Shown here in pieces: positions 14,676 to 20,879 of a DNA stretch of 27,052 bases. The stretch is from a virus: the IMG/VR virus record IMGVR_UViG_3300037961_000829, positions 1 through 27,052 of that record; one strand, given 5' to 3'. The notes beneath the pieces were generated by a model, which saw only the letters and a list, made by a program, of their open reading frames with translations, had not been told where the DNA came from and did not search any database. Position 1 is the stretch's first letter. Every line of letters begins with the position of its first letter. The translations under genes and the position numbers were made by a program.

Positions 14676-16340
14676 TTAATATCCAAATGTTGAGTCTGAG
14701 GGTTGATAAGACTTTTCTAGTTTTAATTGTCTCATTCTATCTAAGGGGTTACTCATTCTAGGTCTAGACATAATTAAATATCTAAGAGCATCATAAGCAT
14801 GATCAGAAGCTTTTGTATCTACATCTTCTGGATTTGATTTATCCAGAGGAATACTTTGAAGTTCTCGTATCAGATTAGGACAAGTATTAAATATTTGTAA
14901 TCGTGGTCTTCCGCTTGGAGTAATCTTCAAGTATTCATGGATTTGTATTTTGCCTTGAATACGATTCTTATCAGCCCTTCGTAGTTTATGACCTGCACGA
15001 ACAAGTGTTTCACCTACTGTAGGACCAGTTGTTCCTGTTCTATTCCAACAGGCAGTATCAAGGACACCTGCAACTGAAAAAGGATCTGCTAGTTCCATAT
15101 TAGTTATTAGATCTGCTAATTCTGTACCTAATAGATTCTTTTGATATAGTTCTCTATATATTACTAATGTTCCATCACTAGGATCTACTGCACCCCAAAC
15201 ACAAGCTGATTCTGATGCATACCCATAGTCAATACCTTTTACACGCTCCCAAGATATAGGTATATCAAAAGGAGCAACTACATGAACATTTCTATCGAAC
15301 TCTGTAAATGCTGCACCTTCTGCAACATCCCAGTTACCTTCTAGTAATTGCTGTCGTTGAGTTGGCGGCAATGCTTTCAGCATTTGCTCATATCTGCCAT
15401 CTTCTGCTAGATATGGATTGTCATCTAACCTAGCAGGAATAAATCGCCTAGAAAGCCCATCAGAGCCTCTGTAAGCCAAGTTTGGAGGGTGAGGGTCTAT
15501 ATATCGCTTCTTGACCCAATACGACCCTACACCATCTGGGTTTGCCGTACAACGCATATACGGAACTATCTCAGGATCTGTCGTTCTTAAACGAGATGCT
15601 AAGTAGTTCCATGAAAATTCTGTAGGTAGATGTGTAATCTCATCAAAGCCTATCCATGAATATGCTTGACCTTGATAACGATACACATCTGCATCTCTTT
15701 CCAAGAAACCAAACTCTATCTTTGCTCCGCTTGGAAAGTTCCAAAGCTTTTCTACTTCTCGGTACTTTGCACCCTTGAAAGCTTTGGGATATAATTCTCT
15801 TGTCTTGTCTATGAGTTCTCTAAGTTCTGGCATAGACCTTCTTAGTATTAATGCTCTGTGTTTTGCTTTATGAGCATATCGGAGTGGATCAACAATCATT
15901 GCATATGATTTACCACCACCTGCTGCACCACCATACAATACATCTGTTTCACCTGCAGCTAAGAAATCTTCTTGAGGACCTACATTAGCTTTGAATATTA
16001 CATTCTTATCTGCTTCTTGACGTAAAGACTTAGGTAAGGCTGCAAGCTCTTCTTTGCTGAATACTCCATCTTCTTTTAGAGCTTCATTAGTTTTTTGTAT
16101 AGATTTTTTATATCTATCTACTTTAGCTTGAGCACTTTTTAGTTTCTTTTGCTTTTCTCGTACTGATCGTTTTGCAGCCTGTTTAGCTTTTGTTTCTGAA
16201 TGGTAATTATACCCTCTGCCCTTAGAACCTTTAGCTCTCCCTGTCTTTTTCTTGGGAGTCCCATCTTTCTTTAATATAAAGTTTCCTTCAGCATCTGTAG
16301 CATAGTTCTCAGGATTTAATTCCCAATCTTCTTTATTCAA
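14676..16340 (-). CDS. terL: Terminase large subunit (TTG start)
   Basis: 554 aa DNA-packaging motor. ATPase: Walker A GGAAGGGKS at residues 137-145, Walker B WIGFDE at 229-234 with catalytic Glu, and a coupling-type segment CTANPDG at 264-270. RNase H-like nuclease: D371 in GIDYG, D428 in VLDTA, and D513/D517 in SDHAYDALRY. The first 100 residues are a Lys-rich extension not needed for the motor core, perhaps DNA binding. The frame has no ATG before residue 148; stops lie just upstream, so the start must be TTG (16338-16340), which overlaps the 79-aa gene by 8 bp and has only a GAGAAAAG-like site. Translational coupling is likely. Product cuts and packages concatemers through the portal. Confidence 0.92.
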   Translation of the reverse strand: MNKEDWELNPENYATDAEGNFILKKDGTPKKKTGRAKGSKGRGYNYHSETKAKQAAKRSVREKQKKLKSAQAKVDRYKKSIQKTNEALKEDGVFSKEELAALPKSLRQEADKNVIFKANVGPQEDFLAAGETDVLYGGAAGGGKSYAMIVDPLRYAHKAKHRALILRRSMPELRELIDKTRELYPKAFKGAKYREVEKLWNFPSGAKIEFGFLERDADVYRYQGQAYSWIGFDEITHLPTEFSWNYLASRLRTTDPEIVPYMRCTANPDGVGSYWVKKRYIDPHPPNLAYRGSDGLSRRFIPARLDDNPYLAEDGRYEQMLKALPPTQRQQLLEGNWDVAEGAAFTEFDRNVHVVAPFDIPISWERVKGIDYGYASESACVWGAVDPSDGTLVIYRELYQKNLLGTELADLITNMELADPFSVAGVLDTACWNRTGTTGPTVGETLVRAGHKLRRADKNRIQGKIQIHEYLKITPSGRPRLQIFNTCPNLIRELQSIPLDKSNPEDVDTKASDHAYDALRYLIMSRPRMSNPLDRMRQLKLEKSYQPSDSTFGY

Positions 16341-16572
16341 AATTTCTTTTCTCTATTATCTTCTTTAAACCTACATGACTGATTGATCTTCCTGTCATGT
16401 GTGATAAATAAGCACTCCCATCTCTAAGTGATAAAGTTTTATCTTTTATCATGGGTACTATAGATTGTAATACTTCTAGTTCTTCTGGTATTTTATCTAG
16501 CTTAGTATTATCTTCTTCGTTTAATTTATAACCAAATGGTATTGTACTACTCGACCTCTTCATAATCACCAT
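16333..16572 (-). CDS. Mini recombinase-like HTH protein between the terminase genes
   Basis: 79 aa (or 76 from the second ATG at 16563). It contains IPFGYKL near the start, then EELEVLQSI, SLRDGSAYLS and TGRSISHVGLKKIIEKR. This reads like the small C-terminal part of large serine recombinases, where (I/V)PFGY is followed by an SLR..A..L helix and a helix-turn-helix. There is no catalytic domain. It overlaps terS by 26 bp and terL by 8 bp, so it is tied to packaging genes. A DNA-binding partner of terminase or a pac/cos-recognition factor is a plausible guess. Confidence 0.65.
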   Translation of the reverse strand: MVIMKRSSSTIPFGYKLNEEDNTKLDKIPEELEVLQSIVPMIKDKTLSLRDGSAYLSHMTGRSISHVGLKKIIEKRNFE

Positions 16573-16945
16573 CTATAATTGTTTCTTTTTTAGTCGGTAA
16601 TATAAACAATCCACTTGTATCATTTACATTCACATCTAGTGTATCTTTTTTACCCAATCCAACTCTATCTAGAATCGTTTGAGCTGCTTGTATTCTTACA
16701 TTAGCTTGTGGTATTGGTTGCGTTGAGTCCATAATGTCTACAAGCTTCATAGCTGCTTTGGGTGCAGACTGTGCTAAGATGCCTGTAGCTATATCAATAA
16801 TCTCAGACCTTAAAGCTTTCACAACAGCAGGATAGCTAGATTCCGAATATCCTGCTAGTTGTGCAGCTTTTTTCGGATCACCTCCTGTAGTTGGTAAGTG
16901 TTTAAGGAATAGTTCTTGCTTCTCTGTAAGTTCTTTATTCTTCAT
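16547..16945 (-). CDS. terS: Terminase small subunit
   Basis: 132 aa. The N-terminus, LTEKQELFLKHLPTTGGDPK then KAAQLAGYSESSYP, is the classic helix-turn-helix opening of small terminases. A central helical section (ILAQSAPKAAMKLVDIMDST, then an IRIQAAQTILDRVGL-like oligomerisation segment) follows, and the acidic tail ends DGDYEEVE. It starts the minus-strand packaging operon and recognises phage DNA for packaging. AGGAT directly abuts the ATG. The promoter at 16953-16981 would place the transcription start at or just beside the ATG, so this mRNA may be leaderless. Confidence 0.88.
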   Translation of the reverse strand: MKNKELTEKQELFLKHLPTTGGDPKKAAQLAGYSESSYPAVVKALRSEIIDIATGILAQSAPKAAMKLVDIMDSTQPIPQANVRIQAAQTILDRVGLGKKDTLDVNVNDTSGLFILPTKKETIIDGDYEEVE

Positions 16946-16952
16946 ATCCTAT

Positions 16953-16981
16953 ATTATACACCTATATTATAAGTTTGTCAA
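16953..16981 (-). promoter_or_regulatory. Perfect sigma70 promoter driving the terminase/virion operon
   Basis: On the minus strand, TTGACA (plus coordinates 16976-16981), a 17-nt spacer and TATAAT (16953-16958) match consensus exactly. The expected start is about 16946, next to the terS ATG (16945). A second, overlapping option uses TATAAT at 16966-16971 with TTTAGA at 16989-16994, also 17 nt apart, which would give a leader of about 14 nt with AGGAT. The two -10 boxes sit in a tandem 11-nt repeat TATAATATAGG. Confidence 0.85.
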
Positions 16982-17010: not shown

Positions 17011-17039
17011 TTGACAAATTGCTAAATTAGATGTATAAT
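17011..17039 (+). promoter_or_regulatory. Perfect sigma70 promoter driving the early genes
   Basis: TTGACA (17011-17016), 17-nt spacer, TATAAT (17034-17039): exact consensus. Predicted start about 17046, giving a leader of about 590 nt before the first early gene. Its spacer resembles that of the divergent promoter, and the two -35 boxes form a 10-bp inverted repeat, TTTGTCAAGT (16974-16983) and ACTTGACAAA (17009-17018). Host RNA polymerase should recognise it at once after infection. Confidence 0.9.
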
Positions 17040-17051
17040 AGATATTAGTGT

Positions 17052-17218
17052 CCCCCCCGTTATATAGTTATATCACTCATCCTACCTTATCTGTCTCCAA
17101 CCCCTCCCCTTTGAAGCACTTTAAAGTCTGCGACTCAATCTGGTTTACAATTGATTTTGGCTCAAAATGTATAAGATTTAATATATATAGGGGGGGAGGG
17201 GGGTGGCAACCTGCCCCC
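17052..17218 (+). repeat. C7 and G7/G6 homopolymer tracts with GC hairpin in the leader
   Basis: C7 at 17052-17058, a CCCCTCCCC stretch at about 17101-17109, and G7-A-G6 at 17190-17203. The last G tract can pair with CCCCC at 17214-17218 around a small internal loop and a GG/CC pair (17205-17206 with 17210-17211), a very stable hairpin for this AT-rich DNA. The G-rich strand could also fold as a G-quadruplex. No gene in this stretch is credible. Confidence 0.6.
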
Positions 17219-17220
17219 AT

Positions 17221-17524
17221 AACTTTAAAGACTCTAAAGAGTCTTAAAAGTTCTATAAATTTATTAGACTTTTAGTCTAATAAATTACACACACACGCTT
17301 TGAAGACTTTTAAAGTCTTCGGAGACTTCAAAGCTGTAAACCTAGTTTACAGTTTGAGAGATTTTTAAGTCTTTAAAGAAACTTTTAGTTTCTTTAATTT
17401 TTCCTTATAAGTCTCATAGACTTATAAGAATTTTAATCGTAGATTAAATAGGGCTAGGAAGCTTCAAAAACTTCCAAATTCAAAAAGGTTTTAAAGTTTC
17501 TAAAAGAAACTTTAAAACCTTTTT
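17221..17524 (+). other. Array of perfect stem-loops in the early leader
   Basis: Consecutive hairpins in plus-strand RNA: 17221-17252 (14-nt arms, one mismatch); 17258-17286 (12 bp, loop TTTTA); 17297-17334 (two competing folds); 17335-17351 (7 bp); 17373-17397 (10 bp, loop TTTTA); 17404-17428 (10 bp); 17432-17448 (7 bp); 17482-17524 (19 bp, loop TAAAA). All except the first are perfect Watson-Crick stems with 1-5 nt loops. Arms share motifs such as GACTT/AAGTC and GTTTC/GAAAC but are not simple copies. No start codon or reading frame explains them. Confidence 0.85.
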
Positions 17525-17532
17525 GGGCTAGG
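17451..17532 (+). repeat. GGGCTAGG direct repeats framing the 19-bp hairpin
   Basis: GGGCTAGG occurs at 17451-17458 and 17525-17532. Between them lie a small GGAAG/CTTCC hairpin (17457-17475) and the 19-bp stem at 17482-17524. The framing looks like an insertion or protein-binding unit. Confidence 0.5.
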
Positions 17533-17634
17533 TATTCTCTCTTGAATTATGTGAAAATGATAAAAAAACTAATAAGACCTAAAGGGATTATTAGTTTTTT
17601 TATCTTTATTTTCACAATTCAAGGAGAATACCTA
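17529..17634 (+). promoter_or_regulatory. 43-bp stem-loop burying the ribosome site of the first early gene
   Basis: 17530-17575 pairs with 17588-17633: 43 Watson-Crick pairs interrupted only by bulges of 1, 2 and 3 nt, with a 12-nt loop (17576-17587). The SD AAGGAG (17621-17626) is wholly inside the stem, and T17529 can even pair with the A of the ATG. Translation should be blocked unless the stem is cut (for example by RNase III), opened, or bypassed co-transcriptionally. Confidence 0.88.
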
Positions 17635-18035
17635 TGGCTGATTTTTCAAACATCGACTCAAATCGAATTGCTTCGAAGAAGCAAATCTGGGCTGTAGCAA
17701 ATAGATTTGCTACTTTGACAGCTTCTGACAAATCTGAAAGATTTGGCAAAGTGAAAGTTTTCAACGCAATTTTAAACTCTTTACATGGTAAAGAGTGTAA
17801 ATTGACTCATGGAGACATTCAAAAGTATTTTGAATGTGAAGTTGTGCCAAAAGAAATTTTGGCAAGAGTTCAAAAGCCTTCAAAGAAGGCTTCAAAAGCT
17901 AAAAAGGTTTCTTCGAAACCTGTTGCCAAGAAAACTGTAGCAAAGAAGGTTTCAAAGAAACCTACTTTGACAAATCGAGTAGACTCTTTAGAGTCTAAAC
18001 TTGATCAAATCTTAGAAGCTTTAGCTTCTAAGTAA
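17634..18035 (+). CDS. First early gene: basic protein from a hairpin-dense mRNA
   Basis: 133 aa, family not recognised. Residues 1-80 look globular and helical (ASKKQIWAVANRFATLTASD; KVFNAILNSLHGKECKLTHG). Residues about 82-112 are Lys/Ala/Ser-rich like a histone H1 tail (SKKASKAKKVSSKPVAKKT). The last 20 form a coiled coil (VDSLESKLDQILEALASK). The basic tail suggests nucleic-acid binding, and the coiled coil suggests oligomers. Good SD AAGGAG, but locked in a long stem. First gene after the strong early promoter and followed by its own terminator, so it is made earliest and as an almost separate transcript. The coding sequence holds 11 perfect hairpins, which no other gene here does. Host takeover or RNA binding is inference. 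Confidence 0.85.
   Translation: MADFSNIDSNRIASKKQIWAVANRFATLTASDKSERFGKVKVFNAILNSLHGKECKLTHGDIQKYFECEVVPKEILARVQKPSKKASKAKKVSSKPVAKKTVAKKVSKKPTLTNRVDSLESKLDQILEALASK
17668..18032 (+). other. Eleven perfect hairpins inside the first early coding sequence
   Basis: Non-overlapping stems (arm length): 17668-17684 (7), 17694-17713 (9), 17729-17745 (7), 17776-17796 (9), 17815-17837 (10), 17845-17864 (8), 17874-17892 (8), 17905-17921 (7), 17947-17963 (7, extendable past one A-A mismatch to 17941-17969), 17980-17997 (8), 18011-18032 (10). Loops are 2-4 nt. Together 180 of 402 coding bases are in perfect stems. Loops fall in different codon phases, so codon repeats do not cause them. Confidence 0.88.
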
Positions 18036-18040
18036 CCTTC

Positions 18041-18090
18041 AAAGCCTAGTAGATATTTATTATCTACTAGGCTTTTTTATTTTTTTTTAT
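18041..18090 (+). terminator. Strong terminator after first early gene
   Basis: Perfect 15-bp stem, arms 18041-18055 and 18061-18075 (core GCCTAGTAGATA), loop TTTAT, followed by TTTATTTTTTTTTATT. It starts 5 nt after the stop codon and should end most transcripts, isolating the first gene from those downstream. Confidence 0.92.
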
Positions 18091-18756: not shown

Positions 18757-18808
18757 TTAATTAATTTTTAAAACACATTCACTTGTGAATGTTTTAAAAA
18801 TTAATTAA
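18757..18808 (+). repeat. Hairpin element, copy 1
   Basis: 24-bp stem with a 2-nt bulge and TT loop (arms 18757-18782 and 18785-18808). Its central 36 nt (18765-18800, core CATTCAC-TT-GTGAATG) are identical to copy 2 at 20633-20668. Outer stem here is TTAATTAA-type. No U-tract follows, so it is not an ordinary terminator. Confidence 0.85.
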
Positions 18809-18834
18809 TTGTAAATGTTGTGATGGAGTCCGAT

Positions 18835-20611: not shown

Positions 20612-20618
20612 TTATTAA

Positions 20619-20681
20619 ATACCTTATAAAAGTTTTTAAAACACATTCACTTGTGAATGTTTTAAAAACTTAATAAGGTAT
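20619..20681 (+). repeat. Hairpin element, copy 2
   Basis: Stem of about 28 bp (arms 20619-20650 and 20653-20681, TT loop) with small bulges. The 36-nt centre (20633-20668) is identical to copy 1, but the outer arms are different sequence (ATACCTTA with TAAGGTAT) and still complementary. This is covariation between copies, evidence that folding matters. Confidence 0.88.
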
Positions 20682-20879
20682 CAACATAGCGAGGGTGTTA
20701 CGAGTAGGGAATAGAAATACTAGAGGATTACAGAGTAAATCTAGGGCTACTAAGCCGTATCCAATCTGTGAAAGTAACAAGACTTATTTTGGCGGGAGCG
20801 TCATGTTTAAAGTCTTTAAACTTAAAACTAAACACGCACGGCTCTTTGGTAGTTTAAGCCTTCAAACCGAAACTACCAC
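20682..20879 (+). ncRNA. Candidate structured RNA island
   Basis: About 200 bp, less AT-rich than its neighbours, between the hairpin element and a strong promoter. Local pairs include CTAGA...TCTAG (about 20720-20743), GGCT/AGCC (about 20744-20756), GTTAC with GTAAC (about 20697 and 20774), GTTTAAA/TTTAAAC (20805-20821) and a 9-bp TGGTAGTTT/AAACTACCA (20847-20855 and 20870-20878). It does not fit tRNA, tmRNA or a known intron core by eye. A leaky ORF from GTG at 20695 exists but is not convincing. Confidence 0.35.

Follow-up and report, generated by a model that had tools for sequence, protein, structure and literature searches.

The first early transcription unit of the phage studied here carries a chain of hairpins that spans the leader, the coding sequence of the first early gene and its terminator. 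The folding itself is under selection, because relatives keep the hairpins by matching changes on both arms, and the hairpins are probably a control site or putative binding site for the protein made there. We refer to the whole stretch of DNA that was analysed (27,052 nucleotides, positions 1 to 27,052 of the 41.6-kb virus record IMGVR_UViG_3300037961_000829) as the window; its features lie on the plus strand unless stated otherwise.

By sequence comparison, the window is from an HMO-2011-type marine podovirus, an assignment made because its TerL is 64% identical to that of Pelagibacter phage HTVC115P and 46-50% identical to the TerLs of HMO-2011 and roseophage CRP, and because DNA polymerase A (DNA_pol_A) is encoded in the window’s own record. 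TerL, portal, capsid and DNA polymerase A all have homologues in the group, and the modules follow the group’s order. Among the ORFs, the terminase, portal and capsid genes (identified by PHROGs) point leftwards and the early genes rightwards. TerL homology, this gene order and DNA polymerase A are shared with the HMO-2011-type phages of PMC9038755, reported as a dominant and widespread marine group; the text of that paper does not mention hairpins or promoters. Two divergent promoters read from the sequence sit between terS and the early leader: a sigma70-like promoter of the terS-terL operon (TTGACA-17-TATAAT, 16953-16981, minus strand) and the early promoter (TTGACA-17-TATAAT, 17011-17039). 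The terS-like ORF lies at 16547-16945 and terL at 14676-16340.

A scan for non-overlapping, perfect Watson-Crick stems of at least 7 bp with loops of 2-8 nt finds 20 hairpins at 17221-18090, compared with a mean of 1.33 and a maximum of 5 in dinucleotide shuffles of the same stretch (n = 200). Seven stems reach at least 10 bp, versus 0.04 in the shuffles, and elsewhere in the 27-kb window the count per 400-nt bin is 0-3. An initial reading of the sequence, made without database searches (the sequence-only reading), had described a chain of about 20 hairpins at 17221-18075, with eight in the leader, 11 in the coding sequence and a terminator stem; the scan recovers both the chain and the same split. 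Stems are 7-21 bp and loops 2-5 nt, so that the proposed loop range of 1-5 nt is correct at its upper end, but the minimum is 2. The shuffled controls that the reading had called for also bear it out. The minimum free energy (MFE) of the leader has z = -12.8 against dinucleotide shuffles and that of the coding sequence z = -7.0 against synonymous codon shuffles, which retain a mean of 1.3-1.4 of the 11 coding hairpins, with 0/200 reaching 11.

The leader hairpins are at 17228-17245 (8 bp), 17258-17286 (13 bp), 17302-17320 (8 bp), 17334-17352 (8 bp), 17373-17397 (11 bp), 17404-17428 (11 bp), 17432-17448 (7 bp) and 17481-17525 (21 bp). Between them and the first early gene (17634-18035, 133 aa) is a long imperfect hairpin (17529-17634), the 3' arm of which contains the Shine-Dalgarno sequence (SD, 17621-17626) and extends to the ATG start codon. 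It corresponds to the 43-bp stem of the sequence-only reading and is real, but it is an imperfect composite helix, with perfect outer arms of 11 nt and inner arms of 25 nt that are 88% complementary. Relatives have near-perfect 20-30 bp hairpins close to the start codon. Within the gene, hairpins occur at 17668-17684 (7 bp), 17694-17713 (9 bp), 17729-17745 (7 bp), 17776-17796 (9 bp), 17815-17837 (10 bp), 17845-17864 (8 bp), 17874-17892 (8 bp), 17905-17921 (7 bp), 17947-17963 (7 bp), 17980-17997 (8 bp) and 18011-18032 (10 bp), the last with the stop codon directly 3'. An intrinsic terminator, recognized by reading the sequence and by the hairpin scan, follows at 18041-18075 (15-bp stem, then a T-run). 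Terminators occupy the equivalent place in the L071, L044, L090 and L030 groups of relatives but are not universal: a simple scan, which misses the window’s own terminator, places one directly 3' of the gene in only 19 of the 87 loci. A search of Rfam 15 returned nothing above the gathering score, only sub-threshold miRNA-like and trpB-motif matches. Elsewhere in the early region, a near-identical intergenic hairpin occurs in two copies (18757-18810 and 20617-20682) with the shared core TTTTTAAAACACATTCACTTGTGAATGTTTTAAAAA; lying between other early genes, these are possible candidates for processing or control sites.

The array begins at a fixed point. Hairpins start at the 3' end of a conserved leader block (block C/D, 17140-17215) that reads CTGGTTTACA-N18-TGTATAAG...TATATATA-G(7)AG(6)-TGGCAACCTGCC and is single-copy in its own genome. 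The same block is found in clade relatives, with the consensus CTGGTTKACA-N17/18-TGTATA-N-TATATATA-G- or C-run-TGGCCACCTGCC, and it is recognizable by eye in HMO-2011, HTVC103P and HTVC115P, the last two of which are without the array. The polarity of the 12-nt GC run beside TATATATA (G-run or C-run on the sense strand) flips among relatives. Aligned on the block, relatives show a sharp edge: hairpins cover 0.6% of the 50 nt that precede its end and 43% of the 50 nt that follow, and coverage then decays over about 1 kb irrespective of the gene border. Coding and non-coding sequence at equal distance from the block are covered to similar extents (12.2 vs 12.8%, 7.9 vs 9.3% and 16.3 vs 17.6%). 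The initial ~180 nt of the transcript have few hairpins.

Relatives, gathered from viral contigs by TerL and TerS similarity, have dense hairpins at the equivalent place with other sequences, as the sequence-only reading had anticipated. In 60 non-redundant loci, the 500 nt upstream of the first early gene contain a mean of 6.3 hairpins; 97% of these loci have at least 3 hairpins there, and 32% have at least 3 in the gene itself. The array is 0.4-0.9 kb long and covers the leader and, in some lineages, the first gene. Thus the leader array is general, whereas the coding hairpins are lineage-specific (the window, L099, the L071/L068 group and others). The same reading had named homologous phages that keep the protein and have no hairpins as evidence against it; coding hairpins are indeed absent from many homologues, but nearly all carry the leader array. 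The first early genes of cultured phages are also hairpin-rich in a weaker form. HMO-2011 gp74 (L011 11169-11786) has 9 stems of at least 6 bp vs 1.2 in synonymous shuffles (MFE z -5.3) and CRP-1 gp01 (L235 1-627) has 11 vs 2.1; their products are, by eye, unlike the early protein family of the window. The pelagiphages HTVC103P, HTVC104P and HTVC115P differ from the window in being without the array. In two of them, HTVC103P gp01 and HTVC104P gp01 lack perfect-hairpin arrays, yet the folding energy of their coding sequences is far below that of synonymous shuffles (z about -6). L090 has perfect hairpins of 22-27 bp on the early strand of its upstream stretch (1133-1193, 1939-1990 and 2286-2338), each 5' of an early ORF, with GTTTTGT-like loops of 7-8 nt.

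Sequence change within the array follows the pairing. The window and L012, a relative at 98%, show 16 differences in this stretch, which fall on 0 of 384 arm nucleotides, 7 of 59 loop nucleotides and 9 of 494 others (P = 2e-4 for 0/16 in arms). Across ten sequences of the L071 group, both partners have changed in 16 of 193 pairs, compared with 7.7 in shuffles (0/500 as high) and 1-4 in slid-structure controls. Transversions, for instance AU to UA and GC to CG, make up many of these double changes. In helix 18 of this group (columns 927-950), the covarying partners are a 5' arm inside the coding sequence and a 3' arm past the stop codon. Divergence at fourfold-degenerate sites in the same group is 2.9% in arms, 17% in loops and 29% elsewhere. 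The covariation and the arm constraint at fourfold sites exclude chance and pure codon or amino-acid effects. Together with equal coverage inside and outside the coding sequence, the covariation and the 10-fold constraint support the earlier suggestion of selection on the folded strand that extends across the gene border.

The first early protein is predicted to comprise a four-helix N-terminal domain (pLDDT about 90), a Lys/Pro/Ala-rich linker modelled at low confidence and probably disordered, and a C-terminal coiled-coil helix. It appears to represent a new family, not in Pfam or PHROGs, judging from sequence searches. A tblastn search gave 0 matches in 50,697 phage records; searches of Pfam, PHROGs and PDB sequences gave coiled-coil or chance matches only; and neither Foldseek nor VIA-align found a convincing match to the fold. 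There were no relatives in the bacterial genome contigs searched, so neither a prophage nor a host was identified. A profile over all 37 family sequences was too divergent for scanning contigs, and a closer subset was used. A second, shorter family copy without the Lys/Pro tail is encoded in L071 (early strand 2066-2329, upstream stretch) and L068 (248-508, minus strand); its coding sequence is without hairpins.

Array and protein family tend to come and go together. Block-bearing relatives with a different first protein mostly have hairpin counts near chance. Mapped onto a TerL tree, there are 7 changes of array and 5 of protein; in about three of four independent pairs the two change together, and in none do they go opposite ways, a comparison in which a sign test cannot reach 0.05. 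The sisters L022 and L026 are 97% identical over TerL and its neighbours, but similarity is lost just after the block, and both array and protein differ; L025, with L026, contrasts in the same two respects with L022, its near-identical sister by TerL. L122 and L121 are likewise close sisters with a homology break after the block and a different array and protein. The exchanged stretch measures up to about 3 kb and holds several genes, so other genes could be the partner. Some loci depart from the pattern. In L069 the array accompanies a first protein that escapes the family profile, L089 encodes a protein related to L069’s first protein and has no array, and L039 and L042 have three hairpins and a different protein whose basic linker and coiled coil are similar. 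The idea that the hairpins are a scaffold bound by their own Lys-rich protein gains indirect support from this shared presence and absence.

So, what are the hairpins for? We tentatively favour, by analogy with phage lambda, an early regulatory cassette that can be swapped between phages and whose first protein would bind the hairpins of the sense strand in cis, in a nut-N-like layout. In order, the cassette would comprise a promoter, the hairpin sites, the long hairpin that covers the SD, the gene for a basic early protein and, in several lineages, a terminator. The protein, with its helical domain and flexible basic linker, would be made multivalent by its coiled coil, and the many sites would provide avidity. 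Contact may be with a loose core beside the loop, in which the 5' arm has pyrimidines, the 3' arm has purines and the loop has an A at its 3' end. The most likely outcome would be autogenous control of early gene expression, with the bound complex altering transcription past the terminator, translation of the protein’s own gene, or both. Strict complementarity may be aided by DNA template-switch repair, in which one arm is copied from the other.

In lambda, the early layout is PL-nutL-RNase III hairpin-N-tL1. The window resembles the lambda N cassette in having a promoter, a hairpin leader and a first early gene for a small basic protein, with a long hairpin at the SD and, in several lineages here, a terminator after the gene. 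In both, the apical part of the hairpin is Y-rich in its 5' arm and R-rich in its 3' arm, with A as the last loop base, and lambdoid cassettes, like these, are exchanged between close relatives. Unlike the single boxB of lambda, there are 8-20 hairpins, which reach into the coding sequence; to our knowledge, about 20 sites far exceed any nut region. The window protein also differs from N in that it has no homology to it and no evident Arg-rich motif, and its binding is putative (background on lambda N: PMC3526286 and PMC4499122). A boxA-like GCTCTTTAAAG string occurs inside a CTTTAAAG palindrome in some leaders (L013, L099) and is not general. None of the known families tested fits fully, and the nearest match is one of layout, not of membership.

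What folds may be DNA or RNA, and the loops point to the strand. The arms have the consensus TTAAAAAYYY-loop-RRRTTTTTAA, with enriched AGTCT, AGACT and GATTC cores. Loops with A last outnumber those with T first by 68:32 in leaders (P = 4e-4) and 44:14 in coding sequences (P = 1e-4); since loops end in A on the sense strand, the sense strand matters. G-U pairs are no commoner in arms than A-C mismatches (26 vs 29 column pairs of 1525; 35 vs 33 cells), which argues against ordinary RNA selection. Canonical conserved RNA structures covary with G-U as a tolerated intermediate; here there is covariation, but G-U equals A-C. The long SD-proximal hairpins give 5 vs 4. Terminators offered too few cases to serve as a positive control for G-U.

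The main rival explanation, though on the unlikely side, is that the array is a DNA element, a possibility that the sequence-only reading had also raised. The sense strand would fold when unwound, by an R-loop or D-loop from the TATATATA/G-run block or by negative supercoiling, and would be used by the early protein or the replisome, as an origin with its initiator or as extruded hairpins like those of phage N4. The parity of G-U and A-C fits such an element, as do the common transversion double changes and the predominance of 2-3-nt loops with GNRA and UNCG tetraloops rare. So do the block, which is single-copy, AT-rich beside a G- or C-run and kept whichever cassette follows, and the drop in coverage with distance from it, blind to the coding border. 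Many block-bearing relatives (including HTVC103P, HTVC104P and HTVC115P) are without the array, which means that replication as such does not depend on it. Moreover, the SD hairpins, RNA-like by position, are equally poor in G-U, and this scarcity may therefore stem from DNA template switching that rewrites one arm, a signal of mutation rather than function. We are slightly more doubtful of a variant in which the array would be a new type of viral cis element, a multivalent set of strict Watson-Crick hairpins on the sense DNA strand that extends over coding and non-coding sequence alike, and the cognate, co-exchanged early protein would read hairpin shape instead of a fixed sequence and open or mark the start of the early region.

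Phage precedents for DNA sites of this kind fit in part. In lambda, the replication origin lies inside the initiator gene O. Here too a cis array overlaps the gene of its presumed binding protein, beside an AT-rich single-copy block, but the sites do not repeat a single iteron sequence, the array is missing from many relatives and the protein has no homology to initiators. The N4 virion RNA polymerase promoters (PMC4496689) resemble the array in their short stems, 3-nt loops and early location, and also in that some stem positions need pairing rather than identity and the hairpin of one strand matters. Unlike the three N4 promoters, the sites here are many, and the promoters are ordinary sigma70-like ones. 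The GC-rich heptamer flanked by inverted repeats of N4-type sites was not found; the arms are A/T-rich with a loose AGTCT/GATTC core. A PF00940 search for an N4-type RNA polymerase had no match in 9 records, nor in the control genomes, which makes it uninformative.

RNA architecture without a dedicated protein, in which the highly folded early mRNA obstructs Rho, nucleases or R-loop formation, or serves as an RNase III substrate, and so sets lifetime and translation, seems improbable to us. The region is transcribed, leader and coding sequence fold far beyond shuffles, and long perfect helices cover the SD. Against this are the few hairpins in the first part of the transcript, the lack of preference for G-U, and the GNRA and UNCG tetraloops that stabilize RNA, which show no enrichment in the array loops. 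It also leaves unexplained why there is no array in relatives whose leader is just as long but whose first protein is another one. The suggestion of an RNA built merely to resist decay is not supported, given the sparse first ~180 nt and the tetraloops.

Very unlikely is a purely mutational origin, in which template switching in quasi-palindromes perfects hairpins at a hotspot without function. Perfect arms, one-step double changes and the absence of a G-U preference would follow from it, but arms evolve far more slowly than their surroundings (as in the L012 comparison and at fourfold sites), which arm-to-arm copying alone would not produce, and both the sharp start and the protein link would be left over. 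We give least credence to an RNA sponge that would titrate a host factor, either a CsrA-like protein or RNase III. Around 20 hairpins in a single RNA is a trait shared with the sponge RNAs CsrB and RsmZ, and the number resembles that of CsrB; unlike them, the array is in a coding RNA. Sponge sites keep a shared unpaired motif, whereas the array loops are varied, A-rich and fast-changing, with GGA rare, and the array is linked to the phage’s own protein instead. No result points to the host-factor or RNase III sponge that had been proposed from the sequence. A CsrB-type sponge was also rejected as a class, as there is no shared GGA loop motif. Of other candidates, mobile palindromic inserts were rejected because the proteins align through the hairpins and the hairpin sequences are not one repeat family, and a type III toxin-antitoxin RNA array because the hairpins differ in sequence and length, with no near-identical tandem direct repeats. 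Double-stranded operators for a dimer were set aside as the arms are complementary even at freely varying positions.

In the literature searched, mostly outside subscription journals, we found no report of such arrays. Neither a hairpin chain that crosses a coding gene, nor its anchor block, nor the associated protein family seems to have been described there. For the early region of HMO-2011-type phages, a conserved element and its likely partner protein are now described. The element occurs in most of the relatives examined, and because HMO-2011 and CRP-1, which are in culture, have a weaker version of it, it is testable, while sister genomes with swapped cassettes are ready comparisons. The array is a natural case in which the folding of a strand dictates synonymous codon choice over a whole gene.
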